DNA of 64,000 nt from a virus: the IMG/VR virus record IMGVR_UViG_3300030202_003189, positions 22,739 through 86,738 of that record; one strand, 5' to 3'. The position numbers were made by a program, and so were the translations under genes. The stretch's first letter is position 1, and the number at the start of each line of letters is the position of its first letter. The notes below the pieces were generated by a model, which searched no databases, had not been told where the DNA came from, and saw nothing but the letters and a program-made list of their open reading frames with translations. Positions 7,546-48,057 of the stretch are shown piece by piece.

Positions 7546-7905
7546 ATGAAAGCAAGAATTATACTAACCGAACAACAATTAAAAACTATTATTGCAGAAC
7601 AAGCGGCCAATCCTGATTGTGTGGTTAACACCCAAGCAGAATCTTCAGTGGTCGCTAATCCTCAAATGGGAGACCCAGGAATAAATCAAAACTTTGTAAA
7701 TAATATGCACGCTAAGCCAACTCAATTTTATAATGCAAGGATGAGTGCGATAACTCAGAAACTATCTTCATTAAGAACTGATTATCCTTTAGGTCCTAAT
7801 GGGTTTCAAGGATTTTGTCAAGGAGAGAATCCACTTTGGCAAGCAAAATTAAATAATAAATTGAATTACGTACAACAGTGTATGAATAACCCTGGTAGTT
7901 GCTAG
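7546..7905 (+). CDS. small internal head protein candidate, Cys-hairpin family
   Basis: 119 aa. The leader ILTEQQLKTIIAEQA ends in IIAE/Q (E18), a clear fit to the (I/L)xE prohead-protease signature and to the capsid protein site LINE/Q. The mature part carries a helix (NNMHAKPTQFYNARMSAI) and then NPLWQAKLNNKLNYVQQC with a final Cys. The NP-x-WQ-x-K element recurs in 487 and 45639. With only about 100 mature residues it may be close to the minimal form of the family. First gene of a run with 7927 and 8628. Confidence 0.75.
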   Translation: MKARIILTEQQLKTIIAEQAANPDCVVNTQAESSVVANPQMGDPGINQNFVNNMHAKPTQFYNARMSAITQKLSSLRTDYPLGPNGFQGFCQGENPLWQAKLNNKLNYVQQCMNNPGSC

Positions 7906-9432: not shown

Positions 9433-9547
9433 TCTTAAAATTTTTATTATTATTATTTTATATGTATTAAATATGCTTTAGATTGTAAAAATTAATTTAA
9501 CCATTAAAAAAGACTCATTAGTAATCATTTTATTTTTGTTTGATATT

Positions 9548-9555
9548 TATTTATA
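9548..9555 (+). promoter_or_regulatory. late-type promoter TATTTATA, 4 nt before ATG
   Basis: TATTTATA, spacer AGAT, ATG at 9560. It lies at the end of the AT-rich 9433-9559 region, in which I see nothing else. Confidence 0.65.
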
Positions 9556-9559
9556 AGAT

Positions 9560-9820
9560 ATGAAAAAACGACGAGTAAATACCAAACTTAAATTGATGTC
9601 CATCATTACTGAGAGGATAAGTGACTTTGTGTGTTCAGAAGACGAAGACGCCTTTTTTGGTGATGGGGGTGAGAGAGTTAATCAGAAGTTAACAAAGGAA
9701 GAATTACAAGAAAGAGTAGAAGAAATAAACATAAATGAGGAAGTTGGATTTGTTAAGGTAAGGGAAATGAGAAAAATAATTAAACAGTTAATTAAAAAGG
9801 GTATAGATGAAGAATATTAA
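9560..9820 (+). CDS. small charged hypothetical protein (86 aa)
   Basis: Basic N-terminus (KKRRVNTKLKLMSIITERI) ending in IITE, consistent with a short targeting peptide, then an acidic middle with EDEDAFFGDGGERV and a charged C-terminal helix (REMRKIIKQLIKK). No known family. The next gene starts inside its last 14 nt in another frame, implying translational coupling. Confidence 0.6.
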   Translation: MKKRRVNTKLKLMSIITERISDFVCSEDEDAFFGDGGERVNQKLTKEELQERVEEININEEVGFVKVREMRKIIKQLIKKGIDEEY

Positions 9821-10271
9821 TGAAGAAGTAAAAAGAATGAGGGAATTAATGGGTTTGAATGAAAATATCCAACATAATAATTTTGCTCAAATGGGGTTAA
9901 CAAGAAAAACGATTAGTCGTGGTGGAGTGATGTACCAAGAACAAGATATGGTTGACGGTGTTGATACTTCAGAGGAACCGGAATCTGAATTCGATAAAGA
10001 GGTTGAAGCAAGAAAAGATGCTTTTGAAAAAGATGTAATGGACTATAGACAGGAAGTTTCTGATAAAATAGAAGATGTGGAAAGTGAAGAAGAAAAGAGA
10101 CAGGAAGATATAGTAGCCCAAAAAGAGAAAACAGAGGAGGAAAAGAAGAAAAAGGAGGAAGAGGAACTAGAAAAAAAGGAAGAAGAGAAAAGAAAAAAAG
10201 AAGAAGAAGAGTTACGAAAAAAGGAGGAATTAGAAGCTAGGTTAGCTGCTCAGAGAGAAAGAACCAAATAA
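9807..10271 (+). CDS. coiled-coil protein with canonical RMRELMG leader
   Basis: 154 aa. The leader INEEVKRMRELMGLNEN is the clearest example of the leader type shared with 18419 and 1669. Residues about 60-154 are an almost uninterrupted Glu/Lys/Arg coiled coil (EEKKKKEEEELEKKEEEK and so on). It may be an internal head or scaffold-associated protein. It overlaps the previous gene by 14 nt, and the T9SS repeat gene starts 11 nt after its stop. Confidence 0.65.
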   Translation: MKNINEEVKRMRELMGLNENIQHNNFAQMGLTRKTISRGGVMYQEQDMVDGVDTSEEPESEFDKEVEARKDAFEKDVMDYRQEVSDKIEDVESEEEKRQEDIVAQKEKTEEEKKKKEEEELEKKEEEKRKKEEEELRKKEELEARLAAQRERTK

Positions 10272-10282
10272 AAAACAAATCT

Positions 10283-13200
10283 ATGAAAAAATTATTTACA
10301 TCACTTTTAATATTTTTAACCCTATCCACCAGCGCTCAAAACAGCTGGATTAACATCCAATTATTAACAGATAATTACCCAACAGAAACGTCTTGGAACA
10401 TCACCCCTCCAGGAGGTTATCCTATTATTATTCAAAATGATTCAGCAATGTTACCTAATACCTTGTATGATACTACTATTGCCATTCAAGGTACAATTGT
10501 CGCATCTATTTTTGACCAATATGGTGATGGGTTAAGTGCTTCACAGTGGGGAGGTACTGATGGTTGGTTTCTTATACAAAATGATTGTCAAGATACAATT
10601 ATGTATGTAGCGGGTAATTTTGGTGATACTTTAGTTAATACACTACAAATTGCTCCATGCGCACCTCCTTCTGGTGGTTGTTTAGATTCATTAGCGACCA
10701 ATTATGATCCAACAGCTGCTTTTGATGATGGTTCATGTATCTACCCTCCCTGTGCTGGTTTAGATACATTTTATGTTATAAATTATTGTCAAGGGGCACA
10801 AAATAAAGTTCATTATAAATGGTCAAATATGGCTAACCCTAATTGTAGGATGGCCGCGTATACGAGGTCCACAGACCCTTATTCTTTAGGGTCACAATGG
10901 TACCCTTACCCAGGAAATTTTTCAAATACAGGAATATTATTTAGTAATAGTCAAAACAACACAACATATTATTTCTTAGGTATGTTAGCAGATTCTTCTT
11001 ATACCGATACATTAGTAGTTACAACACAAGAATGTATTCCAGGTTGTACCGACCCAACGGCACTAAATTACAATCCTTGGGCAAATTCAGATGATGGTAC
11101 ATGTCAAGCACCACCTGCAAATTGTATAACTGGAGAATCTAATATAGTAGTAACAGTAATGCCAGACACATACCCAGGGGAGACATCTTGGGAAATAGCA
11201 GATACAACCGGAACTGTATTAGCCACATCACCAGCTTACTCTACACCAGGTGTTCCTGTAATTACAGAAGTATGTATACCAAACGGTACGGTTATTGAAT
11301 TTACCTTGTTTGACTCATTCGGTGATGGTTTATGTGGTTCATGTTATGGAGGAGCTGATGGAGGAGCAGTAGTACAGACCCTTTGTGGTGATACTATATT
11401 AGCTATATTACCTGGGAATGCTAATTTTGGAAATGATACTTCTGTAGTATACACAGTGGCTCCTTGTACACCAAATGCTATATTAGGATGTACAACACCA
11501 GGATTTACAGAATATAATCCACAAGCAACAGTAGATGACTCATCTTGTGTAACACCAGTCATATTAGGATGTACTGATATAACTTCACCAGATTACGATT
11601 CATTAGCTAACACAATGTCAGTAATACCACAATGTCAATATACATTAGTAATTACGGATGAAGCCGAAGATGGATGGTTTGGGGCGTGGGTAGGTATATT
11701 ACAAGACACAACAATATTAGGTCCATTTATGATGGGTCCTCAAGATGGTTATTCAGAAACATTTACAATTAGTTTAAGTGCTTTAAGTCCAGTAGAGTTA
11801 ATGTTCTTTGCACCAGGTAATTCAGCTACCACAGCAAATCAATGTGGTTTCTTTTTAATAGGTCCTGAAGGGGACACTACCCTATCAGGAGGGACTAATC
11901 CTTGGACTGACCCAATGTTACAATTTCCTTATAGATATAATGGGGTACCTTACTGTGGTGACTTTTGTACAGATGGTGTTCTTGGTTGTATGGACCCAAC
12001 AGCCTTAAATTATAATCCATTGGCAAATATGCCTGACAATTGTACACCAGTTGTATTAGGTTGTACAAATAATTTAGCTTTTAATTATAACCCTTTAGCA
12101 AATACAGATGATAGTTCCTGTGTATCAATTATAATTGGATGTATGGACACCACAGCATTCAACTTTAACCCAACAGCTAATACAAACGACCCATCTTCAT
12201 GTATATCAGTAATATTAGGTTGTATGGATGATACAATGTTTAACTACAACGCTGCGGCTAACACCGACGATGGTAGTTGTATACCAGTAGTGTTTGGTTG
12301 TACAGATCCATTAGCATTTAACTATGATAGTTTATCTAACACAAATAATGGTACATGTACACCAGTCATATTAGGGTGTACGGATGCAACTGCTTTTAAT
12401 TACAACCCTAACGCAAATACTAATGATTTATCTTGTGTGGCTGTTGTTATTGGTTGTACCGATGCGTCGGCTCTTAATTATGATTCATTGGCGAACACAA
12501 ATAACGGATGTATATACCCAATTTTAGGTTGTACCGACCCTACCGCATTTAATTATAACCCCAACGCAAATACTAGTGATAGTACGTGTATACCAGTTAT
12601 TATCGGTTGTACTGACGCAACCGCGTTAAATTATGACTCAACAGCAAATACAAACAACGGTTGTGTTTATCCTATCTTAGGATGTACCGATGCCACTGCG
12701 TTTAATTATAATCCTAACGCAAATGTTAATGATTCTACCTGTGTCCCATTTATATATGGGTGTACAGATAACACGATGTTTAACTATGACCCAACCGCGA
12801 ACACAGACAATGGTTCTTGTATAGCGTTTGTTTACGGATGTACGGATAGTACAATGTTTAACTATGACCCATTAGCAAATACTAACAATAACACATGTGT
12901 ACCATTCATCTATGGTTGTACCGACTCCATAGCTTTTAACTATAACCCAGCGGCTAATACGGATAATAATACGTGTATTCCAGTATTATCAGGTTGTACC
13001 GACTCAATAGCGTTAAATTACAATCCATTGGCTAATACAGACAATGGTAGTTGTATTATACCATTATACGGGTGTACAGACTCGACAGCCTTAAATTATA
13101 ATTCACTCGCAAATACTGATGATGGATCATGTATTTTACCAATTTACGGATGTACGGATAGTACAATGTTTAACTATAATCCATTGGCAAATACAAATGA

Positions 13201-16172: not shown

Positions 16173-16943
16173 ATGAAAAAATTATTAACAGAACAAGGAG
16201 CAACACAAGCATGGACGTGTTGTTGTAATGGTCAATCACATGAGATAGGTGGAATACAAACACACTTCTATGCAAATGGGAATACTTGTAATAGTCAGCC
16301 TGGAGGGTGTGCGAACCAAACACTACAACCAAACGGATCATCAAATCAGATACCATGGAATTTACTAAATCCCAATTCAAATAGTGGTTATGGTCAAGGG
16401 GCAGGAACTTCTTTTCCGGGTACTGGACAACTTAATGGACAAACCCCTATTGGTATATGGAGTGTTAATAATACTTTTAGTAGTACAAATGGGGGTAATG
16501 ATTTTGGAGAACCTTACATTTGGTTTACTCAAAATTTAATGGATCCTAACGATCCTTCAAAATGTCTTCCAAACCCAGCTAATTGTAGAACAGAGACACC
16601 TCCACCACCTCCACCTCCGCCACAACACAAAGGTTGTATAGATCCAAACGCATTAAATGACGGAGAATGTTGTAATGGAAACCCAAATTGTACTCCTGTT
16701 GCTCATAGTCAGCAATGTTGTAAATATGAACGGATTGACGATCCTATAGTGAACGAATGTTGTAAGTGGTGTCAAACAGGTCCCTTCATAGGAAACCCTC
16801 CACAGGGATGTAAAGATTGGATGTGTACTGACCCGCAATGGTTAGCCCATAATTGTCCTGGTATAGAACCAATAGAACCAAAAGATAAAGACAAATTTTT
16901 AGAACTTAGGGAAGAAATAAAGAGAATTAAGGAGTTATTGTAG
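16173..16943 (+). CDS. Cys-rich putative virion protein with very short leader
   Basis: 256 aa. It opens MKKLLTEQGATQAWTCCCNG: the leader is only seven residues before the LLTE/Q site, and the same TEQQAT.AWSC sequence follows the site in the protein at 42704, so these two are related. The C-terminal part has 20 or more Cys including CC pairs and a degenerate GCIDPNALNDGECC unit that echoes the 10283 repeats. The last residues (LREEIKRIKELL) resemble the leader helix of other proteins but at the C-terminus. A Pro run (PPPPPPPP) separates the halves. Confidence 0.7.
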   Translation: MKKLLTEQGATQAWTCCCNGQSHEIGGIQTHFYANGNTCNSQPGGCANQTLQPNGSSNQIPWNLLNPNSNSGYGQGAGTSFPGTGQLNGQTPIGIWSVNNTFSSTNGGNDFGEPYIWFTQNLMDPNDPSKCLPNPANCRTETPPPPPPPPQHKGCIDPNALNDGECCNGNPNCTPVAHSQQCCKYERIDDPIVNECCKWCQTGPFIGNPPQGCKDWMCTDPQWLAHNCPGIEPIEPKDKDKFLELREEIKRIKELL

Positions 16944-19825: not shown

Positions 19826-22800
19826 ATGAGAAATCACAATAAAGAAAATGTCAGTGTTGGGTCGTACACGTTCCCTATAGAAGACCTCGATAAAAGGATA
19901 TTAATCGAAGCTTTTAAGTTATATGATAGTAGTGTGGATGATCCAGAACGCATAGCGTCAGTAATACATGAATCATGGTGGAAAGAACTTGACAATATGT
20001 TAAGACTCTATGGTAAAAAAGGAATGGGTTTTTACTATGGTTATATGATGTATCTAAACCAAAACAAAAGTGGTGAGGAATTAAAAAATGGAGATATTAA
20101 TCCAGTTGTTGCCCCAGGATATAAAGTACAAGAACAAGAAGGTGCTGGAACACACAGAGTTGGAGAACTTGATGGTGTGCAAATGATAGAGATTGAGGGT
20201 GTGTTTGGGTTGGCGTCCTATGGAGGTGACAGATGGAAGGGATCAGCAGATGGTAAAACTAAAATGGAATGGTCAATAATCTTTGACGATATGGGAGAAA
20301 TGAAAGTCGGTCCTACATTTATTTATGATTATAAACAATATGAGTTGGAACCGGATGAGATTGATTACTGGAGTATAGGTGGAAGTAATACAGAAAATCT
20401 TTTAGCGGTTTTATTAAGTTTTTATAGAACATATGGCGATACTAATCTTATTACAGAAGAAATTGATACGGAAATAAAATATGCTATTGATCAACAATAC
20501 CGTAATGACCCAGAAGAAAGAAAAAACGTATTAGATTCTTTAGAGTTTGACCCTTATAAGGATAGAGATTTTTATGTGGGTGGTTATAAAGAATTACAAT
20601 TTGATGTTGAGCCTAGAACGTTAGTTAATAAATTAGCACAAGAAAAAGGTTACGGAAAAGTAGTAGATGAAATGCTAGGTGGGAACGGCACAGCTTATTT
20701 CACGTCAAAAGGAAATGTTATTAAAATAACTGGAGATAAAAGCGAATATGAAACCGCTAATGTAATTAAAGGAAAACAAAACAAATATATTGCCGATGTT
20801 TTCGAAAGTGGAAAATTAGATTCTTCTCATATTATTAGTGGTGACGCTTATATTATTATTATGGAAGAATTAGGATTACCTAAAAGAATATCAGAAATAT
20901 TTGAAGATTGTTGTTGTGGGGTTAATAAACCAATCTATATTGAATACAACGAAACTCCGGCAGTTATTCACCCTCCAGTTAATGGAAAAGAAGAATGTGA
21001 AAAATTACACAAAAATCTATTAATGATTAGACAAGAATTAACACAACATGGTATTAGTTGGAGTGATATTGGTATAGATAATTTAGGGATGAAAAATGGA
21101 AAGTTGGCTCTTCTTGATTTGGGAGAAACAACGGGTGGTATAGATACTGGGCAAACAATTGAATTAAATGAACAAGAACAACTAGAATTAGAATTACCAA
21201 CACCAATTGGAGAATTTGAATTTCCTGCAGGGTATGAAGATGTACACACCGAGACAGGTGAAGAGTATGCTGGCGCGGAACAAGAAACCGTAGATGCAAT
21301 TAGAGATGAAGTAAGAGATGAATCTGTAACATATCTTTTTAAGAAGTGGGATAAAACAGGTGTAAATTTTGATGACCTAAAATTAATAGGTATTCCAACA
21401 AACAATTCTTTAATTAAAATCATGTTAGCGAAGAGATACCTTAAAAATACAATGAGACCTATTCCAGTGTCCTATACTTTCGATTGTGAAGACCTTTCAA
21501 AAATGTTTATAAAAGACGCTAGAGATTATAGTGTAGATTATATTGAGCAATTTTTATGTGGAGAACACGAATGGGACGACTACGATAATTGGTATGATCA
21601 TGATTGGTATGATGGAATGTCTGACGATTTAGATGATAGAAATTGGAAAACTATAATGAATATTCTGGGTGTAACAACTCAAGAAGAAGCAGAAAATCTA
21701 GTCAATAATAGACCTCAAACGGAGGAAGAAGAAAGAATTGCCGAGGAAAAAGAAGAGGTAATTAGTGAAATTAGAAGCAGTATATTGTGGACACATAATG
21801 ACGAGGCAGAATGGAGAACCAAACGTGACATGGGTGATGACGTTATTGATAAATTGGGAGAACATTTTAATAACGATGGAAAATTAAGCCGAGATGACAA
21901 TGGAAAGTGGTCTTGGACAATTGAGGATAACTTATTAAATTGGTTGGGGGACGATATGTGGGATAATATCGACCTATATGAATATCATCCAGATTATGCA
22001 GGTTATACTTTAGAAGATTGGTTAACGGATTGGTCTGTAGGACCTATACAAGATGCGATATTTGAATCACTTATGTTAGAAGAATTTACCTTTGAAGACT
22101 ATGATTATGGTAAAAGAGGAGACCTACTAGAACCAAACACAAGATTCTTTGATAATTATTATCATCCTAATTACGATATCAATGACGGACTCTATGATAG
22201 ATTGGGTGAAATTGAACATTATTCATCGGCGAGCGCAACACCATTACTTAAAGAAGGATTATTCGAACAATCCGACGCATTTGATAAGGGAGAACTTATA
22301 ATATTAAAACACGTCCATAAAAATTTTAGCAAGAAAGAACTTGAAGATTTAGTATCGGAAACACCAATATATGGTGGTGCATCAAAAAAATGGACTACTC
22401 TCATGAAAATGTTTGGTATACCAACATCCTCAATGGAACAAGCCGCCATCTCAACTCAATATGCCAAATACGCTTTAGATAATTGGAATGAGGAGGGTAA
22501 TTATACCATGGAAAACCCAATAAGAGATATGATAAGTTGGTGGGATATTAGTCGTGACGAAACAGGGTCACAGGTTGAATATAAATCAGGTGGTACAGAT
22601 GTACTTGCCTTTGACGACGACGACGCTGAGGAGAGGGGAGATAATGAATTTCATGACTGGGATGGGGATATGGAGACCGTTGATTGGGGAGATTATGAGG
22701 CTTATGATTCTGAAGTAAGAGAAACAGAACCAACAGGGAAATATCCAGAGATCCCTAAAATATCGGAAGGGGTTGCTGGTGACCAAGAAAAACACACAGG

Positions 22801-23683
22801 TGAACAAGGAGGGTTTTTTACTCTAGATGGAAGTGATAACATAGGTAATACCGATTTATATAAAGGTGATGGTTTTGACATTATTCACCAACATAGAGGT
22901 AATGTGCACCTGTCCGACATCTCACCGGAAGAGAGTGAAACATCAATACCAAAAGGAAGTAAAAAAATTAAAAAGACCGTACTTAAACCAAGACTTGATA
23001 AAGGACCATTTAACATACCAGTACCTATGAAAGAACATTATGAGGATGTAGAAAGTAATCCGGATCTTAATCCAGAGGTAGAGGAAGGAGATGTTATTGA
23101 GCTTTTATATATGGATGATCCATATTCCATCCCTATAAAAACAAAAGGAGTCGTTATGGGATTTGAAGGTAAACCTGGGGATTTTGCTTATAAAATTCTA
23201 GTGAATTGGATTTTGGGACCAGAAAAGTTAACTCCTATGGCTCTTCTACCGGATGCCGATATATACAGATTCCCAAAAAAGAAAAAGGAGGGGATAAATG
23301 AGCAGTGGAAAAAACCCTACAAAGACCCAAAGGCCGTTGTAAATGGAAAAGAGATTGACTTAGACGTAGCAGATACAGAGTTTCTAAAACAAAAAGGAAT
23401 GATGTATAAAACTTCTTATCCAAGAAATAGAGGTATGTTATTTATTTGGGATGACATAGTTCCAATATCTATGTGGATGAAAAATACTTACCTTCCTTTG
23501 GATATTGTTTATATGGTAGATGGTGAAGTGGTTGATTATGATAAAGACGTACAACCTTGTGATAAACAACAATGTGAGACATACGGAGACGTTAATGCCA
23601 ATCAGGTAATAGAACTTCTCAGTGGAGGAGTAGATAATTATAATATATCAATTGGAGACCAAATTGAGTTAATGGATGTATAA
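19826..23683 (+). CDS. giant multidomain protein: kinase-like fold plus C-terminal DUF192
   Basis: 1285 aa. Residues about 272-435 look like a protein-kinase-like (or APH-like) fold: a glycine-rich loop GGNGTAYFTSKGNVIKIT with a VIK lysine, an acidic helix after it, then HGISWSDIGIDNLGMKNGKL and ALLDLGE in the places of the catalytic and metal-binding (DFG-like) loops. Residues about 1155-1285 match DUF192 (MLFIWDDIVPISMWMKNTY, LPLDIVYM, CDKQQCETYGD, GDQIEL). The long middle is acidic, Trp/Tyr-rich and repetitive in style. No secretion signal and no obvious cleavage leader. Late promoter and size suggest a virion or ejected protein, comparable in concept to T4 Alt. Kinase activity is a hypothesis. 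Confidence 0.72.
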   Translation: MRNHNKENVSVGSYTFPIEDLDKRILIEAFKLYDSSVDDPERIASVIHESWWKELDNMLRLYGKKGMGFYYGYMMYLNQNKSGEELKNGDINPVVAPGYKVQEQEGAGTHRVGELDGVQMIEIEGVFGLASYGGDRWKGSADGKTKMEWSIIFDDMGEMKVGPTFIYDYKQYELEPDEIDYWSIGGSNTENLLAVLLSFYRTYGDTNLITEEIDTEIKYAIDQQYRNDPEERKNVLDSLEFDPYKDRDFYVGGYKELQFDVEPRTLVNKLAQEKGYGKVVDEMLGGNGTAYFTSKGNVIKITGDKSEYETANVIKGKQNKYIADVFESGKLDSSHIISGDAYIIIMEELGLPKRISEIFEDCCCGVNKPIYIEYNETPAVIHPPVNGKEECEKLHKNLLMIRQELTQHGISWSDIGIDNLGMKNGKLALLDLGETTGGIDTGQTIELNEQEQLELELPTPIGEFEFPAGYEDVHTETGEEYAGAEQETVDAIRDEVRDESVTYLFKKWDKTGVNFDDLKLIGIPTNNSLIKIMLAKRYLKNTMRPIPVSYTFDCEDLSKMFIKDARDYSVDYIEQFLCGEHEWDDYDNWYDHDWYDGMSDDLDDRNWKTIMNILGVTTQEEAENLVNNRPQTEEEERIAEEKEEVISEIRSSILWTHNDEAEWRTKRDMGDDVIDKLGEHFNNDGKLSRDDNGKWSWTIEDNLLNWLGDDMWDNIDLYEYHPDYAGYTLEDWLTDWSVGPIQDAIFESLMLEEFTFEDYDYGKRGDLLEPNTRFFDNYYHPNYDINDGLYDRLGEIEHYSSASATPLLKEGLFEQSDAFDKGELIILKHVHKNFSKKELEDLVSETPIYGGASKKWTTLMKMFGIPTSSMEQAAISTQYAKYALDNWNEEGNYTMENPIRDMISWWDISRDETGSQVEYKSGGTDVLAFDDDDAEERGDNEFHDWDGDMETVDWGDYEAYDSEVRETEPTGKYPEIPKISEGVAGDQEKHTGEQGGFFTLDGSDNIGNTDLYKGDGFDIIHQHRGNVHLSDISPEESETSIPKGSKKIKKTVLKPRLDKGPFNIPVPMKEHYEDVESNPDLNPEVEEGDVIELLYMDDPYSIPIKTKGVVMGFEGKPGDFAYKILVNWILGPEKLTPMALLPDADIYRFPKKKKEGINEQWKKPYKDPKAVVNGKEIDLDVADTEFLKQKGMMYKTSYPRNRGMLFIWDDIVPISMWMKNTYLPLDIVYMVDGEVVDYDKDVQPCDKQQCETYGDVNANQVIELLSGGVDNYNISIGDQIELMDV

Positions 23684-24735: not shown

Positions 24736-25809
24736 ATGAGTAAAATTAAACTAGAGTATATTTGGTTGGATGGTTATAACCCAGAACAAAACATAAGAAG
24801 TAAGACTAAAATACTTGACGTAAAAGAATTAGATGGTGGAATTCTAGCACAAAATCTACCGGTGTGGTCTTTTGATGGTAGTTCTACAAAACAAGCGGCA
24901 GGAGATAATTCAGATTGTCTACTCCAACCGGTACACCTTATTAAAGACCCAACCAGAAACGAAGGTTATATCGTTTTATGTGAGGTATTAAATGCCGATT
25001 GGACTCCACATAAGAGTAATACACGACATAAATTAAGAGAATTAGAGAGGGTGGCTAAAAAACACAAGTTTTGGTTTGCTTTTGAACAGGAGTATGTATT
25101 AACTAATATACAGGGGAGGCCGTTAGGGTTTCCAACTATAGGATACCCAAAACCACAGGGAGAATTTTATTGTGGTCTTGGTTCAGAAAATGTAGAAGGA
25201 AGAGATGTGGTAGAAGAACACTTAGACTTATGTTTAGAGGCTGGTCTAGATATTACCGGAATAAACGCAGAAGTAATGATTGGACAATGGGAATACCAAC
25301 TCATGGGCAAAGATTCTCCTCTTAAGTCAGCTGACGACCTAATACTATCAAGATATCTTCTAATAAAATGTATGGAAAGATTCCAAGTAACGGTAGATTG
25401 GAAACCTAAACCAATTGAGGGCGATTGGAATGGTTCCGGGATGCATGTTAATTTTTCAACCAAGGAAACTAGAGAAAAGGGTGGAAAAGAGATGTTTGAT
25501 GATATTTGTGAGAGTCTAGGTTTATACCATAAAGAACACATAGAGGTTTATGGAAACGATAATGATAAGAGATTAACTGGACTACATGAGACTCAATCCA
25601 TAGAAAAGTTTAGTCACGGAGTAAGTGATAGAGGTGCAAGTATTAGAATACCAATATCGACAGTTAAAAATAACTGGAAGGGTTATCTAGAAGATAGAAG
25701 ACCAGCAAGTAATGGAGACCCGTACCTAATCATTGAAAAGTTAGTTTCGACTGTTTCAACATCCTTAACTAGTAAAGAAAAACAGAAATCTTTAGTCTTG
25801 AAAAAATAA
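24736..25809 (+). CDS. glnII: type II (eukaryote-like) glutamine synthetase
   Basis: 357 aa, the usual length of GSII enzymes, which make glutamine from glutamate, ammonia and ATP. The N-terminal beta-Grasp domain has IWLDGYN and VWSFDGSST. The catalytic domain shows FAFEQEYVL (about residue 115, metal-binding Glu residues), GINAEVMIGQWEYQ (about 175-188), NGSGMHVNFS (about 232-241), NDKRLTGLHET (about 275) and RGASIRIP (about 300). All key residues appear intact, so it is probably active. No capsid-targeting leader and no late octamer, so it is likely an intracellular metabolic gene. It could raise glutamine for nucleotide synthesis or change nitrogen signalling. Rare in phages as far as I know. 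Confidence 0.92.
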   Translation: MSKIKLEYIWLDGYNPEQNIRSKTKILDVKELDGGILAQNLPVWSFDGSSTKQAAGDNSDCLLQPVHLIKDPTRNEGYIVLCEVLNADWTPHKSNTRHKLRELERVAKKHKFWFAFEQEYVLTNIQGRPLGFPTIGYPKPQGEFYCGLGSENVEGRDVVEEHLDLCLEAGLDITGINAEVMIGQWEYQLMGKDSPLKSADDLILSRYLLIKCMERFQVTVDWKPKPIEGDWNGSGMHVNFSTKETREKGGKEMFDDICESLGLYHKEHIEVYGNDNDKRLTGLHETQSIEKFSHGVSDRGASIRIPISTVKNNWKGYLEDRRPASNGDPYLIIEKLVSTVSTSLTSKEKQKSLVLKK

Positions 25810-25824
25810 AGATAAATTATCTGA

Positions 25825-25832
25825 TATTTATC
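25825..25832 (+). promoter_or_regulatory. late-type promoter TATTTATC
   Basis: TATTTATC followed by 5 nt and ATG at 25838; one mismatch. It separates the DHH gene from the preceding glutamine synthetase gene. Confidence 0.55.
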
Positions 25833-25837
25833 TTTAT

Positions 25838-27241
25838 ATGAAACGAGTAAAACTAACCGAGTTTGAGATACATAGTTTAATAGATAGAGTTCTATTAAAA
25901 GAAACTGGTATTCGAGATATTAAGAAATTGGCTCAAAGATATCCTAAAGCTGAAATATATTTTCACCAAGATACTGATGGGGTTGCGACCGCAATCGCAA
26001 TGAGAGAATACTTAAAAAATAACGGTATAGAAACCGTGGATTCTCATGTTATACAATATGGGGAAAAGGAATTTCAAGTAAAGAAACCAGACGCAACGGG
26101 TGATGTTATGCCAGTTCTTGTAGATTTTGCACACGGTAAGCCACAATTCACAATCCATACTGATCACCATGACTCTCAGTCTGGGGTAGAAAAAGATACC
26201 TCAACGCAGTTTCGAGGTGCGAGATCAAATGTAGAGACTATTTCTCAAGTGGTTAGTCCTAGTGATATTTTTTCTAATGAGGATATCGCAATGATATCAG
26301 CGGTTGATTCTGCGGATTTTGTTAAACACGGTATAAAACCTGAAGACGTTATGAACTTTATGTTAAATATAGATAAACAGAAACCATCTTCAGAAAATAA
26401 AAAAATGATAGGACTTCTAACCAATAAGTTGTTATTGGCTTATAAAAATAAACCTGACTTTTTAGAAAGTTTAGTGATGAATTCCTCACCTTCACTCCTA
26501 AACATATTAATTAATATTAAAAAAATAGCGGCAGAAAAAGGATACGCAACACCAGAAGAGATGTTACAAAATCAAACAGATTACATTGAGCGACAAAAAA
26601 GTAGTGACAAGGTTAAGTATGAAGACGGTATTATTTCACAATACGGAGGTGGGTATTTAATGAAACCAGGATCGTACGATCGTTACGTACCATTTAAGAA
26701 TCATCCAGACGCTAATTTCTTTGTAATTGCGTGGCCAATGGGGTTAGTTCAAGCCTCATGTAATCCGTTTAAGGAAGAGAGAAGTCTAAAAGGTATTAAT
26801 TTAGGTGATATCGCTCAAGAAGTGTTAAATGAATATAGAACCGTTTTAGAAAATGAAAAGATAACAATAGATAGAATAAAATGGACTAGTGAACGTAAAA
26901 CAGAAGAATTTAGTTCTGGGTTTGGTTTAGCTGACCTTAAGGCTTTTTATGGGGACAATATAAAAGGAATAGACTTAAATAAAGATTCTAGTTATGTTAA
27001 TCTTTTTAAGAATATTATGGATAAACCACAAAATAAACTTTCTAATAAACAACAAAAAATCTTAAAAACTGGTTGGGTTTCTGCTTGGGACATTATCCAA
27101 GCAAATTCTGGAGGACATAAATGTATAACTAATATCAGCGGAATAATGTATTTACCTAAAGAAATGAAGAAAGACATGTTGGTAGGGTTTCAACAAGGTA
27201 TAATCTCAGTCCTCAAGGAAAGAATCAAAAACCAAAAATAA
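25838..27241 (+). CDS. DHH-family phosphoesterase with capsid-targeting leader
   Basis: 467 aa. The DHH superfamily (RecJ, NrnA, PDE-type Mn-dependent phosphoesterases) is shown by HQDTDGVATA near residue 42-51 (motif I), LVDFAHG near 92 (motif II) and HTDHHDSQ near 106-113 (the DHH motif), followed by AVDSADF near 153 (motif IV). The leader KRVKLTEFEIHSLIDRVLLKE ends LLKE (E22), as in head-packaged proteins. The C-terminal half has GGHK near residue 425, as in DHHA1-type domains. Substrate could be ssDNA, nanoRNA or a cyclic dinucleotide. If packaged it would act at the very start of infection; cleavage of cyclic signals in host defence is an attractive but untested idea. It converges with 27206-27805, overlapping by 36 nt. 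Confidence 0.85.
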   Translation: MKRVKLTEFEIHSLIDRVLLKETGIRDIKKLAQRYPKAEIYFHQDTDGVATAIAMREYLKNNGIETVDSHVIQYGEKEFQVKKPDATGDVMPVLVDFAHGKPQFTIHTDHHDSQSGVEKDTSTQFRGARSNVETISQVVSPSDIFSNEDIAMISAVDSADFVKHGIKPEDVMNFMLNIDKQKPSSENKKMIGLLTNKLLLAYKNKPDFLESLVMNSSPSLLNILINIKKIAAEKGYATPEEMLQNQTDYIERQKSSDKVKYEDGIISQYGGGYLMKPGSYDRYVPFKNHPDANFFVIAWPMGLVQASCNPFKEERSLKGINLGDIAQEVLNEYRTVLENEKITIDRIKWTSERKTEEFSSGFGLADLKAFYGDNIKGIDLNKDSSYVNLFKNIMDKPQNKLSNKQQKILKTGWVSAWDIIQANSGGHKCITNISGIMYLPKEMKKDMLVGFQQGIISVLKERIKNQK

Positions 27242-28768: not shown

Positions 28769-31222
28769 TTAACTCACCTTAACTTTTATTTTATTTGTTT
28801 TTTTATCGTAACTTAATGATAGTGTTGATCCCTTTTTAACAGAAGATCTTAACATTTCTTCGGCTATGGCATCTTCTAGATAATTAGAAATTGCTCTATT
28901 CATTGGTCTAGCACCATACTTATCACTATATCCCTTTTTCATTACAAGATCTTTTGCGCTTTTATTGACCTTAATAGTGTAACCCATTTCTAACATTCTC
29001 TCTTTAAGGAACCCTAAATGTACTTCTAGTATCTTAGAAATATTATCTTTTGAGAGTTTATTGAAAACTACAATATCGTCTAACCTATTAATAAATTCAG
29101 GATTGAATCTCTTCTTCAAATTCTTGTCAATTATTGATTGTACTCTTTCTTCATAGTAGTCATCACTATTTGAAGTTCTAAATCCTACACCTTCTCCAAA
29201 ATCGTCTACTTCTCTCATACCGATATTTGAGGTTAAAACAACTAAACAATTTCTAAAATTAACTTTTCTTCCCATCCCATCTGTCATAAACCCATCATCT
29301 AAAAGTTGTAATAAAGAGTGAAATATATCCGGATGTGCTTTTTCCACCTCATCAAAAAGTACCAAAGAATACGGTTTACGTCTAACTTTTTCGGTTAATT
29401 GTCCCCCTTCATTGTATCCAACATAACCCGGAGGTGAACCTATCATTTTTGTTGCTGCAAACTTCTCAGCGTATTCCGACATATCTACCCTAATTAAAGA
29501 ATCCTCACTACCAAAAACTTCAAGAGCTAGTTGATTTGCTAATTCTGTTTTTCCAACACCTGTTGGACCCAAAAACATAAAACTACCTATTGGTTTATTA
29601 GGATTTTTAATACCGACTCTATTTCTTCTTAAAGATTTACAAACCTTATCAATTGCCAAATCTTGTCCGATAATCGAAGATTTTAGTACTTTATCTATAT
29701 CTAATAGTTTTTGGGACTCATCCTCACTAAGTTTAGTGACTGGGATATTAGTACTTGTAGATATAACCTTTAATATTTGTTCTTCGTCGACAATTGATCG
29801 GTCGTTCTGTAATTGGGTTTCCCAATGATCCACAAAGTTTTTTAAGTCAGTTTTTAGAGTTTTTTCTTTATCCCTAAGACTGGCAGCTTTTTCATATTGT
29901 TGTGAAATAACCACTTTATTTTTCTCTTCTTTTATCTGATCAATCTGCTTCTCAACCTCCTCGATTCTTTTAGGTGGTTGAGCATGAACAGCAACACTCG
30001 CCCCAGCTTCATCCAAAACATCTATCGCTTTATCTGGAAAATTTCTATCAGTAATGTATCTTTCAGATAACTCAACACACTTAATTATTGCTTCTTTAGT
30101 GTAAGATACTTTATGGTAATCTTCGTAGGTTTCTTTTATATTATTTAATATGGTAAGAGTTTCTTTTTTTGTTGGAGGATCAATCATAACTTTCTGAAAT
30201 CTTCTTTCTAAAGCACCATCCTTCTCAATGTGTTCTCTATATTCATCAAGAGTTGTTGCTCCAATACACTGTATTTGACCTCTAGAAAGGGCCGGTTTTA
30301 AGATATTGGCGGCGTCCATTGATCCGGAAGAATTCCCTGCCCCTACCATAGTGTGTAACTCGTCAATGAACATAATTATATCTTTATCGCCTCTTACTTC
30401 ATCTAATAATCCTTTTATTCGTTCCTCAAACTGACCTCGATATTTAGTACCCGCCACTAAAGAAGTTAAATCTAAAGAAACTACTCTTTTACCCATTAAG
30501 GGGCGAGGACACTTTTTCGTTATAATCTTAGTGGCCAATCCGTCAACAATTGAAGATTTCCCAACTCCTGGGTCCCCAATAAGAACAGGATTATTTTTCT
30601 TTCTTCTACTTAATATTTGTGCAATTCTATCTACTTCTTTTTCTCGCCCAATGACAGTGTCTAGTTTTCCATTTCTTGCTTCTTCTGTAACATCTAGACT
30701 AAAAGCATCTAAAATTGGTGTTCCACTCTTTTCTGTTGGGGTTTTTCCTGAGGGAGCTCCCTCCTCTTGACCAAACGGTTCTTCATTATACATCATACTC
30801 ATACTTATTAATTCTTTTTTATAGGTTTTATATTCGACTCCAAATTTAAGCAAAAAACGCGAGACTCCCGAGCTTTTTTGTGCTAAAATTGATAACATTA
30901 AATGATGGGAGTTTATTTTGTTATCTTTTAACAGTTTTCTTTCATCATTAACATGATCTAGAATTGATTGGGCGTCAGTGGTAAAAGGAATGACCATACG
31001 CAATTCCCGGTTCTCTGTGTCAATTGTTAATAACTCCTCTAATAAGGTAGTTATAGAGTCTAAATCTAACCCCAAATTCAATAATAGCTCACATGAGCTA
31101 TTCCTCTCATGTTTTAGTATTCCCATGAATAAATGAATAGGTCTAATATATTCTGACTTATAAACGGTTGCAACGTCTAGACCAGTTCTTATGATTTCTT
31201 TCAATGGATATAATTCTTTCAT
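28769..31222 (-). CDS. clpC: ClpC-type AAA+ unfoldase
   Basis: 817 aa, normal ClpC length. It has an N-terminal double Clp-N domain (about 1-140), D1 AAA+ with Walker [10 protein letters not shown] (about 217) and Walker [11 protein letters not shown], and a ClpC-type middle domain with the UVR-like [13 protein letters not shown] (about 440). D2 AAA+ follows with GPTGVGKTE (about 551), Walker [12 protein letters not shown] and arginine-finger region FINRLDD. The tripeptide VGF near residue 677 sits where ClpC carries its ClpP-docking loop, so this unfoldase can probably bind host ClpP and feed it substrates. Phage Clp ATPases are uncommon; roles could be host protein turnover, virion protein remodelling or defence removal. 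Its upstream TATATTTG is host-like. It stands alone on the minus strand. Confidence 0.93.
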
Positions 31223-39528: not shown

Positions 39529-41346
39529 ATGGCCAAGAGAAATTTAACAATATATCAGAAATTACAACAAGTATTTGGTGCGGGGGCAATGAGAAGGACC
39601 CCACCAAGTTATAATGTTGACCCAAGTAAAATACTACTTAAAACACCATCAAAGTCTGAGTTCGATCAAGAAAAACTACAGGCTCAACAACAAGCTTTTC
39701 TAAAAGGACAATGGAATAAAGTAGATAGTGAGTTATATAACCAAGCCATTTATTATGAAACAACTAGACTAGCATCATTTTATGATTTTGAGTCGATGGA
39801 ATTTACACCAGAAATTGCCGCAGCTTTAGATATATACGCAGAAGAAAGTTGTACTCCAGATGAAACAGGAACTTTACTTACTGTAGAATCAGACTCTAGT
39901 AGAATAAAAGATATACTAGATAATCTCTTCCATAAGGTTCTTGACCTACACGCGGTATTACCAGCTTGGACAAGAAATACCTGTAAGTATGGGGATAATT
40001 TTGTTTACCTAAAAATTGACCCAAAACAAGGTATTATTGGGGCATCACAATTACCAAACATTGAGATAGAGAGAAAGGATGAAAGTAGTTATCTTACCTC
40101 ACGAAAATCCGGGACCTATGGAGTTGAGGGGGAGGAAGAAAAAGATAAGAACATTAAGTTTGAATGGAGAAATAAATCAATCTCTTTTAACGCTTGGGAA
40201 ATTGCTCATTTTAGGTTACTAGGAGATGATAGAAGACTACCATATGGAACTTCTTTATTAGAAAAAGTAAGACGAATCTGGAAACAATTATTATTATCGG
40301 AAGATGCTATGATGATATACAGGGTAACTAGAGCGCCGGAAAGAAGAGTCTTTAAGATAAATGTTGGTAATATTGATGATCAAGATGTACAAGCATATGT
40401 GAATAAGATTGCTAATAATTTCAAAAGAAGTCATGCTATAGATCAAAATACAGGTCAGGCAGATTTAAGATATAACGCATTAGCGGTTGACCAAGACTTT
40501 TTTGTTCCAGTTCGTAATGACGGAGCTGCTAATCCAATTGAGACACTACCAGGGGCTGGTAATTTAGATCAGATTGCTGATATCGAGTACATCCAAAAGA
40601 AAATGTTATCAGCTTTAAGAATCCCAAAACCTTTTTTAGGGTTTGAAGAACCAGCGGGAGAAGGAAAGAATTTAGCACTTCAGGATATTCGTTTTGCTCG
40701 AACAATCAACAGAGTTCAACAATCAATGATTCAAGAACTTAATAAGATTGCTATAATACATCTTTATATTTTAGGTTTTGAGGATGAGTTGGAGAACTTT
40801 ACCCTAAGATTGCAGAATCCATCAACACAAGCCGAAATGTTAAAAATAGAACAGTTCCAATCAAAAGTGGCGTTGTATAGAGATTCGGTGTCTGATGCAG
40901 GTAATGGTTTTGGTGCAACTTCTATGACTTGGGCAAAGAAAAATATATTAGGTTTTAGTGATGATGATATTCTTCTAGATTTAGAAAGACAAAGAATGGA
41001 AAAAGCCGCAGCGGCAGAGATGGAGAACACTGCGGAAGTGATAAAAAGTACTGGTATTTTTGATGAGGTAGATAAACTATATGGACAGGCGGCGGAAGGT
41101 GAAGATGTACCAGCAGAAGATAGCGGTGACGAACCACCAACTCCAGGAGAAGCAACTGGTGATGTACCCCCACCGGCAGACGTAGATATGGATGATGATA
41201 TGATGATGGAAAAGAAGAGTAGTTATGAAAATCTAGTTGATATTGTAAATCTTGATACAAAAAAGAAAGGTAAAAATACAAAAAGTAATTTAATTAAAGA
41301 AGACCTAGAGTACCTAAAAGATAATTTGGACAAACTTTTAGAATAG
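39529..41346 (+). CDS. portal vertex protein (T4 gp20-like)
   Basis: 605 aa. Typical features of T4-type portals: an early AAALDIYAEESCTPDETG (residues about 98-115), then RNTCKYGDNFVYLKI (about 145), a central ILAHFRLLG-like segment seen here as EIAHFRLLGDDRRLPYG (about 224), RAPERRVFKINVGN (about 268) and a clip/crown region with PGAGNLDQIADIEY. The C-terminal about 60 residues are acidic and end with DLEYLKDNLDKLLE, a helix similar to those at the ends of other proteins here. The dodecamer is the DNA gate and the nucleation site of the prohead. It is followed by core genes, then protease, scaffold and capsid, as in T4. Confidence 0.93.
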   Translation: MAKRNLTIYQKLQQVFGAGAMRRTPPSYNVDPSKILLKTPSKSEFDQEKLQAQQQAFLKGQWNKVDSELYNQAIYYETTRLASFYDFESMEFTPEIAAALDIYAEESCTPDETGTLLTVESDSSRIKDILDNLFHKVLDLHAVLPAWTRNTCKYGDNFVYLKIDPKQGIIGASQLPNIEIERKDESSYLTSRKSGTYGVEGEEEKDKNIKFEWRNKSISFNAWEIAHFRLLGDDRRLPYGTSLLEKVRRIWKQLLLSEDAMMIYRVTRAPERRVFKINVGNIDDQDVQAYVNKIANNFKRSHAIDQNTGQADLRYNALAVDQDFFVPVRNDGAANPIETLPGAGNLDQIADIEYIQKKMLSALRIPKPFLGFEEPAGEGKNLALQDIRFARTINRVQQSMIQELNKIAIIHLYILGFEDELENFTLRLQNPSTQAEMLKIEQFQSKVALYRDSVSDAGNGFGATSMTWAKKNILGFSDDDILLDLERQRMEKAAAAEMENTAEVIKSTGIFDEVDKLYGQAAEGEDVPAEDSGDEPPTPGEATGDVPPPADVDMDDDMMMEKKSSYENLVDIVNLDTKKKGKNTKSNLIKEDLEYLKDNLDKLLE

Positions 41347-44944: not shown

Positions 44945-45634
44945 ATGGAACTTAAATTATTAAAAGAAGGTGAGGTAGGTTATGGGTTATTAGTAGAAAA
45001 GGATTCTGGTTATATTTCACCACAAACTACAGAGAATAAAAAAATTATAAAAGAAATGAATGAGATGGGTACTAGTTATGGACCTATCCAAATGGTTGCT
45101 GTCCTACAGAAATGTGGTGTACAAAATAGAAACGGAAGAGTTTATCCAGAAAACATTCTAAGAAAAGAAGTAGATAAACATCAGGAAGTAATACAGAATG
45201 GTAGGGCGATTTCAGAACTAAATCATCCTGACTCTTCTATTATTGATTTGGAGAGAACGTCACATAAGTTGGACGAAACTTGGTGGGATGGTAATACCTT
45301 AATGGGAAAACTAACTTTGATAACTTCACCAGCTTACGAATCTAATGGTACTGCAACTACACCAGGAGATTTGGCCGCTAATTTACTAAGACATGGAGTA
45401 CAGTTAGGTATTTCATCTAGAGGGGTAGGGTCCTTATCAAATGTAGGAGGACAGAATATGGTACAAGATGATTTTGAATTAATTTGTTTTGATTTGGTCT
45501 CGTCTCCGTCAACACCAGGGGCCTACCTATTCAATCAGGTTGAAGAAGCGAAACCTTATGTGGAATCAAGAAGACCACAAAAAATAATGGAGTCAAAATT
45601 AGACGAAACAATTAAAAATTTCTTAAAAGATTAA
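44945..45634 (+). CDS. prohead core serine protease (T4 gp21-like)
   Basis: 229 aa, the normal size. Herpesvirus-assemblin-type fold inferred from NRNGRVYPENIL (about 60), ELNHPDSS (catalytic His, about 97), GKLTLITSPAYES (about 120-135) and GISSRGVGSL (catalytic Ser, about 158). In T4 this enzyme matures the capsid, scaffold and internal proteins by cleaving after (I/L)xE. Many products in this window have such sites, including the capsid protein (LINE/Q). It is the obvious candidate to process them all. Its own N-terminus KLLKEGE has a similar sequence, possibly self-cleaved. Confidence 0.9.
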   Translation: MELKLLKEGEVGYGLLVEKDSGYISPQTTENKKIIKEMNEMGTSYGPIQMVAVLQKCGVQNRNGRVYPENILRKEVDKHQEVIQNGRAISELNHPDSSIIDLERTSHKLDETWWDGNTLMGKLTLITSPAYESNGTATTPGDLAANLLRHGVQLGISSRGVGSLSNVGGQNMVQDDFELICFDLVSSPSTPGAYLFNQVEEAKPYVESRRPQKIMESKLDETIKNFLKD

Positions 45635-46851: not shown

Positions 46852-47628
46852 ATGAATTTAATAGAAAATATAAAAAAAGAATTAAGATTATTAACTGAGC
46901 AAAGCTCTTGGTGGACAACTATGACCTCATGGGCAACAGCAGCAGATGCAGTTAATACTTCAAATGCACCAGCCACTTCAGATCCAAATACTCCTGCAGC
47001 CCCAGGTGTAACAGGTTCATACTCTTCAAATGGTGTGTGTTTTGATTCAGCAGCTAGTACGTGTCAATTAAATAATAGTTTATCTCACACTCAGAAATGG
47101 AATCAATATGTTGCCTGTTTAGATCCTTATGCAACTCCTTGTACTTTAGGTACGAAAGTACAACAGGGGACTCCCGGATATAATTCTCAATACGCAGGAC
47201 AACAGTTATGTATTACACATACCGCTCCCTCCAATGTGACAGGGGGATATTCGCCATATGAAATACTTGAACTTAATTCTCCTGATTGTGCAATTGCATC
47301 AACTCCATGTGACACAACACCATCTTCACCATGTGCACAACAGTGGTTCCAAAACCCTAACGCGACATGGGCATCAACTTGGATAACTAATAGAGATTGT
47401 TCAAATTACAATTGGCCATCAATTAATTTAGAACAACAAGCAATGGATATAATGAATGACCCAACAACTCCAAACCCACAAAGTGGTCCTTTTAATAATT
47501 GGAATGACATATGGTCAGCAGGTAACGTCGCATGGCCAAATACTACAGGAGCTCCTAAAACCCAATTCATTGCAAAAATGGCGAAAGCTAAATATGCGCA
47601 ATGTCAAATACAAGCATGTAACTGTTAA
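46852..47628 (+). CDS. Cys-hairpin family protein, LLTE/Q leader
   Basis: 258 aa. The leader NLIENIKKELRLLTEQSS ends LLTE/Q (E16). The body is Ser/Thr/Ala/Pro/Asn-rich and without charge for long stretches, with 13 or more Cys (CQLNNSLSHTQKW, CITHTAPSN). It closes with the family signature FIAKMAKAKYAQCQIQACNC. The neighbour at 47632 has a nearly identical leader, so leader peptides have been duplicated independently of the bodies. Starts 1 nt after the previous stop. Confidence 0.73.
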   Translation: MNLIENIKKELRLLTEQSSWWTTMTSWATAADAVNTSNAPATSDPNTPAAPGVTGSYSSNGVCFDSAASTCQLNNSLSHTQKWNQYVACLDPYATPCTLGTKVQQGTPGYNSQYAGQQLCITHTAPSNVTGGYSPYEILELNSPDCAIASTPCDTTPSSPCAQQWFQNPNATWASTWITNRDCSNYNWPSINLEQQAMDIMNDPTTPNPQSGPFNNWNDIWSAGNVAWPNTTGAPKTQFIAKMAKAKYAQCQIQACNC

Positions 47629-47631
47629 ACT

Positions 47632-48057
47632 ATGAATTTAAGAAAAAACATAAAAAAACAATTACGTCTATTAAAAGAAACGGATGATAGACCAGACAAT
47701 TGGAGAGAACTACCAGGATATAATCCTGATGCTTTTTATCCGATAACGAATTATGGTGATGATGATTTAAGGTTAGAACCTGAGGATGACGATACTTCTT
47801 CTAGACTACCAGCTCATTTCTATGAGGATGATTATGATTTAGATGAGGGGGACTTAGATGAAATTTTTGACGAAACTCAAAGAGGAGACAGGGTTAGATA
47901 TTTCGTAGACGTTTATTATGATACTATGTTACCAAGTTCTGGAAATGCAGAAAAAGATAAAGTTTTGGCGGAAAAAATTGCTAGAGCTGATCTTCGTAGT
48001 CTTAAAAATCGAGAGTATATTATAGGACCTGTAGAATTAAGAGGATACTATAATTAA
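47632..48057 (+). CDS. acidic putative head protein, leader duplicated from 46852
   Basis: 141 aa. Leader NLRKNIKKQLRLLKETDD differs from that of the upstream gene at only a few positions, but the following sequence is unrelated: Asp/Glu/Tyr-rich (DDDLRLEPEDDDTSSR, EDDYDLDEGDLDEIFD), then a folded-looking end (RVRYFVDVYYDTMLPSSGN ... YIIGPVELRGYYN). This is direct evidence that the leader is a mobile module. Confidence 0.7.
   Translation: MNLRKNIKKQLRLLKETDDRPDNWRELPGYNPDAFYPITNYGDDDLRLEPEDDDTSSRLPAHFYEDDYDLDEGDLDEIFDETQRGDRVRYFVDVYYDTMLPSSGNAEKDKVLAEKIARADLRSLKNREYIIGPVELRGYYN

Follow-up and report, generated by a model that had tools for sequence, protein, structure and literature searches.

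A stretch of virus DNA, referred to below as the window (64,000 nucleotides, positions 22739-86738 of a 231,285-base virus record), encodes a strongly conserved DHH-superfamily phosphoesterase that begins with a capsid-targeting-type leader, and the presence of this leader is beyond chance. What appears to be new, by comparison with phage T4, is a probable T4-style capsid cargo which has a DHH enzyme as its payload. The gene, its leader and its motifs are located in the window as follows.

25838-27241, plus strand: gene of the DHH-superfamily phosphoesterase (ATG start, 467 aa; based on the ORF, a weak Pfam DHH match, AlphaFold2 and Foldseek)
25838-25903, plus strand: N-terminal leader of 22 aa, MKRVKLTEFEIHSLIDRVLLKE, with a predicted prohead-protease cut after E22
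25964-25981, plus strand: motif I, H43-Q-D45-T-D47-G48 (H43, D45, D47 and G48 invariant)
26120-26134, plus strand: motif II, V-D96-F-A-H (invariant)
26162-26170, plus strand: motif III, D109-H110-H111 (invariant)
26300-26314, plus strand: motif IV, around D157 (D157 and A159 invariant)
27107-27121, plus strand: S424-G-G-H-K428, DHHA1-type substrate motif, a diverged GGGH (S424 to H427 invariant)

The product of ORF 25838-27241 is a real DHH-superfamily phosphoesterase. Pfam DHH (PF01368) matches its residues 40-140 at 18.5 bits, under the curated cut-off of 28.1 (E 0.0025), and also matches all 23 aligned relatives (best E 9.6e-6); since motifs and fold agree, the sub-cut-off score is taken as a limit of profile sensitivity and not as a defining feature. 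When the AlphaFold2 model of the protein (pLDDT 84, pTM 0.83) was compared with the PDB by Foldseek, many DHH enzymes were retrieved at probability 1.00, with E-values down to 7e-7. PDB sequence searches with the single protein and with a 23-sequence profile retrieved no DHH enzyme, and PHROGs holds no family for this protein. The preliminary description had reported intact DHH-type motifs, and all the metal-binding motifs are indeed present: D45, D47, D96, D109-H110-H111, D157 and G425-G426-H427 do not vary among 29 sequences, one of them bacterial. Its C-terminal "GGHK" motif exists too, but in the form N-S-G-G-H-K, the first G of GGGH being a serine; the invariant element is S-G-G-H in place of the usual G-G-G-H, K428 is replaced by R in the bacterial homologue, and Pfam DHHA1 gives no match. 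Selection on the DHH body is strongly purifying: compared with the nearest relatives, dN is 0.038 and dS 1.17. Judged by its motifs, the protein is very likely to use two-metal phosphodiesterase chemistry, and it can be predicted with good confidence to be an active phosphodiesterase.

The protein starts with MKRVKLTEFEIHSLIDRVLLKE followed by TG, its leader ending in L-K-E just before T-G. Scored against a matrix made from seven other leaders of the genome, with the DHH leader left out, it reaches 16.4 bits, a value equalled or exceeded by 3 of 55,619 internal 18-residue windows (about 0.001 after offset correction); the top internal matches are themselves leader-like sites within long ORFs. 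In the relatives, the leader ends in [L/I]-x-E in 48 of 48 distinct N-termini and the next residue is S, G or T (one Y), with leader lengths that run from 6 up to 34 residues and are most often 7 or 20. Some leader calls in general depend on the assumed start codon. The segment that follows the relatives' leaders is a conserved (S/T/G)-G-I-R-D-I. The amino acids of the leader change 3 to 10 times faster than those of the body, and the L/I-x-E end is retained. Two megaphage relatives carry a leader of the T4 internal-protein kind, MISKYNQFINE or MLRKYGQFINE, in both cases followed by EVG. The earlier proposal of a DHH enzyme with a capsid-targeting-type leader is supported, and the phage encodes the matching prohead protease.

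This protease belongs to a T4-like head module in the window, comprising terminase, portal, S77 prohead protease and major head protein. A slash marks the end of a leader here and below.

25825-25831, plus strand: TATTTAT promoter-like motif, 13 nt before the DHH start codon
37692-39461, plus strand: terminase large subunit, also with the TATTTAT motif (PHROG 2, E 7.6e-50)
39529-41346, plus strand: portal protein (PHROG 213, E 8.9e-66)
44945-45634, plus strand: T4 gp21-type prohead protease, Peptidase S77, starting MELKLLKE/G (Pfam S77 E 3.8e-25; PHROG head maturation protease E 4.6e-45)
49622-51559, plus strand: major head protein (PHROG 138, E 6.3e-67)

The position of TATTTAT peaks at -11 to -13 before the ATG in 19 ORFs (p 9e-10 versus an even spread), a set which includes the terminase, prohead protease and DHH genes and which suggests that the DHH gene is co-regulated with the other two. 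Leaders are more frequent among ORFs that have the motif (22 of 38) than among those that lack it (29 of 160; p 2e-6). Many relatives with a short, 7-residue leader are devoid of the promoter-like motif. At exactly -12, TATTTAT occurs in 13 of the 198 ORFs of genome G000. The motif TATTTATA-N-TAT, which is the reverse complement of the T4 late box TATAAATA, runs right up to the ATG in many late-type ORFs (e.g. window starts 1669, 17976, 19826, 31916 and 37692); if it is the late promoter, the 5' leader of the corresponding mRNAs would be almost nil.

The gene directly upstream of DHH is leader-bearing in 74 of 83 loci (89%, 12 clusters), compared with 16-38% at other positions, and one of these upstream leader-bearing families is a phage lysozyme. 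In the L003-L027 group a lysozyme-family gene lies just upstream of DHH (e.g. L017:4365-4967) and carries the N-terminal leader-like peptide MHITITENQYDRLLE/Q. Genes found near DHH include DUF3310, DNA methylase and glutamine synthetase; the last adjoins DHH in the window (24736-25809) and recurs near it in 47 related loci (cluster 3), while in the megaphages a different, 464-residue protein is encoded two genes upstream of DHH. Downstream, a convergent DUF192 gene is present in 55 loci; in the window DUF192 is instead the C-terminal part of a 1285-residue ORF (19826-23683). The window also encodes, on the minus strand at 28769-31222, a Clp-type double AAA unfoldase (PHROG ATP-dependent protease, E 1.9e-245).

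Related leaders occur on unrelated ORFs of the genome, e.g. MARVIKLKESDITKIVKKILKE/RK and MKKIRLSESDLTNLIERVVKE/QA, and the following are found in the window.

7546-7905, plus strand: ORF with the related N-terminal leader MKARIILTEQQLKTIIAE/QA (weak matrix score, 5.6)
16173-16943, plus strand: ORF with the short leader MKKLLTE/QG
46852-48057, plus strand: two ORFs that follow the protease gene and precede that of the major head protein; their leaders are ELRLLTE/QS and QLRLLKE/TD

In the contigs of the relatives (1262 ORFs), matches to the leader matrix lay at the N-terminus 58 times and at internal sites 6 times. A simple genome-wide count of [L/I]-x-E in N-termini shows mild enrichment only (42% versus 24-27%), and the claim therefore rests on the stricter tests based on the leader family and on the relatives. 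A second, internal leader is found in ORFs of genome G000, e.g. at residue 354 of 9469-11475 (minus strand) and at residue 161 of 225871-226560, as would be expected of cargo polyproteins. Two other leader-bearing ORFs of this genome (21328-21933 and 146041-146778) contain a chaperone domain of the Peptidase S74 family, which is characteristic of tail spikes, so that the leader perhaps does not always lead to the inside of the capsid. A Pfam search of 20 leader-bearing ORFs returned S77 and S74 and almost no other known domains, and the cargo list is therefore one without names.

In several relatives the DHH body is followed by a second domain. A SET domain (protein lysine methyltransferase-like) is fused behind DHH in L025 and L056, as detected by Pfam, and in L079, as detected by similarity; an unnamed domain of ~170 residues occupies this place in L058, L066, L072, L075, L077 and L078, and an extension of ~500 residues in L059. 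The junctions between the domains read INEIKYNIKKTLLE/TS, KVNEIYSTLKTKLVE/IS or SLSECSLLGVLTE/MV, peptides that look like leaders set between cargo domains.

DHH relatives number at least 505 in IMG/VR. Full-length relatives with 40-44% identity are encoded by the 634-642 kb megaphages LR745206 and LR756502, and a weaker, partial one by LR756501. Matches in the phage collection are to uncultured records only, and the closest models in UniProt likewise come from uncultured phages and are proteins without a name; A0A6J5L671 and A0A8D9FS97 share the fold of the window protein (TM 0.86-0.91). Two cellular relatives were found, both from Myxococcota and 31-33% identical over the body: a collection of 84,980 species yielded one homologue, and Myxococcota genomes (290 from the class and 379 from the phylum) one more, found in the class. 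These proteins begin with LALFALLAASAFAPVASA followed by KHG and LLIAILLAFVSSSALA followed by APR, stretches which lack the L-x-E segment and which read as Sec-type signal peptides. A scan of viral contigs with the Myxococcota protein gave no matches. As an apparent Sec-type signal peptide replaces the leader in these homologues, the enzyme seems to be built for export or delivery by two routes. It is conceivable, and put forward here as a rather speculative generalisation, that the whole family acts outside the producing cell, which it would leave by Sec export in Myxococcota and by injection from the capsid in large phages, and that in some phages it forms part of a cargo polyprotein (e.g. 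with SET) whose internal leaders are cut by the prohead protease.

The processing of internal head proteins in T4 provides the precedent for the phage route. T4 gp21 cuts after L/I-x-E; the propeptides are between 7 and 65 residues long, and for IPIII a ten-residue stretch is enough for targeting to the head (PMC9026906). For the DHH protein, the fold and motifs, the leader family, the protease gene and the promoter-like motif are observed, and cleavage, packaging, ejection, catalysis and substrate are inferred. The enzyme would be a head cargo of a large T4-like phage, made late together with the head proteins. Its 22-residue leader would dock it into the prohead core, where the gp21-type protease would cut after L-K-E, leaving the mature enzyme, from T23 onwards, in the capsid with the DNA. 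At infection it would be injected and work in the new host as a two-metal DHH phosphodiesterase, the likeliest substrates being short linear oligonucleotides (nanoRNA, linearised dinucleotides or ssDNA ends). The strict [L/I]-x-E end, the shared and internal leaders, the S77 protease, the promoter-like motif and the leader on the upstream gene together make packaging likely and ejection plausible. By analogy with T4, the protein is probably packaged in the head, and its ejection into the host is favoured with less assurance; the T4 precedent gives good reason to expect that it arrives with the DNA (PMC9026906). Delivery and enzyme activity taken jointly are given an even chance, the substrate being the least secure step.

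As to the substrate, motif I has the form H-x-D-x-D-G, with Y41 four residues before the first Asp and H43 two residues before D45. The NrnA-type motif I, by comparison, is H-x3-D-x-D and belongs to enzymes that cleave c-di-AMP, the ligands being H34, D38 and D40 in DrNrnA (PMC11229311). In profile searches with the window protein and 23 relatives, NrnA and GdpP families gave no matches. TIGR00644 (RecJ) was weakly matched by 16 of the 23 relatives (best E 6.7e-4), and the window protein itself matched a single RecJ model, NF053576 (E 0.11, 11.3 bits versus a cut-off of 360). Foldseek matches range across pGpG hydrolase, DhhP, RecJ and PAP phosphatase with TM values of about 0.3-0.5, the best E-values belonging to pGpG hydrolase and DhhP; because all TM scores are low, they do not place the protein within a DHH family. 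NrnB enzymes that have been tested work on linear RNA but leave c-di-AMP uncut (PMC12709177). On the grounds of motif I spacing, RecJ matches and NrnB activity, linear oligonucleotides are as likely as cyclic signals or somewhat likelier, and they are tentatively regarded as the main substrate; a cyclic defence signal seems an unlikely one.

The preliminary description had gone further and suggested that the injected enzyme degrades a cyclic-oligonucleotide alarm to counter CBASS. Neither sequence nor structure nor neighbourhood gives evidence for cyclic nucleotides, and a direct anti-CBASS assignment was dropped for want of support. In its broader form, destruction of cyclic di- or oligonucleotides of CBASS or type III CRISPR at DNA entry, this explanation can appeal to the known cleavage of c-di-AMP and cyclic oligoadenylates by DHH and DHH-DHHA1 enzymes, to the anti-restriction proteins among the T4 internal proteins (PMC3012670), to the best Foldseek E-values, and to the role against cyclic-nucleotide defence that Iyer and colleagues proposed for jumbo-phage DHH enzymes generally, without a delivery element (PMC7824862). 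The tyrosine at the place of the NrnA-type histidine, the missing NrnA and GdpP matches, the inactivity of the tested NrnB enzymes on c-di-AMP and the lack of any counter-defence hint among the neighbouring genes make it improbable.

Two further explanations accept the enzyme and dispute its journey. The leader might not be a packaging signal at all, the N-terminal helix being otherwise used, and DHH might be a late cytoplasmic auxiliary enzyme of nucleotide recycling, which would suit the DUF3310, DNA methylase and glutamine synthetase genes around it, the leaders on S74 proteins and the current filing of phosphoesterases common to Mar_Mega_1, LR745206 and others as auxiliary metabolic genes (PMC9723777). 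Such a reading is rather unlikely in view of an [L/I]-x-E end kept strict despite variable leader length, leaders common to unrelated proteins and placed internally at domain junctions, an encoded prohead protease, and an adjoining leader gene in 89% of loci. Alternatively, DHH could be a head-assembly factor of the prohead core with no role in the next host, e.g. one that trims nucleic acid during packaging; its leader type recurs on the ORFs at window 46852-48057, located between the genes for the protease and the major head protein, and the TATTTAT motif suggests co-regulation with terminase and protease. The DHH gene lies outside the head module, however, the SET-domain and other fusions look like cargo, and the bacterial homologues, being apparently secreted, point to a task at a distance from the cell that makes them, which leaves this explanation quite improbable.

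If delivery by the capsid is true, a very common group of uncultivated large phages injects a phosphodiester-cutting enzyme at entry, and the T4-like cargo system is open to many proteins. The leader would then allow host-delivered proteins to be listed from sequence alone, a question otherwise out of reach in phages that are beyond culture, and would single out a few enzymes as candidates for screens for early host takeover or counter-defence.

Among known DHH enzymes, RecJ and archaeal RecJ/GAN share the D-x-D-G motif I, the DHH motif and weak profile matches with the window protein, and give the highest query-normalised Foldseek TM (0.40-0.42); they differ by an identity of ~7-13%, by an extra OB-fold domain, none being evident here, and by the ~80 residues inserted here between the DHHA1-like strands and the SGGH motif. 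NrnB nanoRNases (COG2404) are alike in the stand-alone DHH plus DHHA1 layout and the GGH motif, with SGGH here instead of GGGH; NrnB of Bacillus phage AR9 was a Foldseek match (TM by target 0.51, 14% identity). The cyclic-dinucleotide type represented by NrnA, GdpP and DhhP has its own histidine spacing, absent from the window protein (Y41). The phage nucleases Acb1 and Apyc1 have the 2H and metallo-beta-lactamase folds, unlike DHH, and neither is known to be packaged. Being anti-CBASS and anti-Pycsar nucleases (PMC9117128), they would have a common purpose with this enzyme only if the anti-CBASS reading were right. The phosphoesterases of LR745206 and LR756502 are full-length homologues with T4-like leaders; together with that of Mar_Mega_1, which is a candidate relative only, they are uncharacterised and have been filed as unknown protein or auxiliary metabolic gene. 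The closest system as regards delivery is that of T4 IPI, IPII, IPIII and Alt with gp21, which is alike in the short propeptide ending in L/I-x-E, the S77 protease, the late-looking genes and the unrelated bodies behind similar leaders. It differs in that the cargo here is a DHH enzyme whose packaging is predicted from genes, in that the leader (~22 aa, with a KLTES-L-x-x-I-I-type helix) is longer than those of T4 and different in sequence, and in that some relatives, unlike T4, chain two domains through an internal leader.
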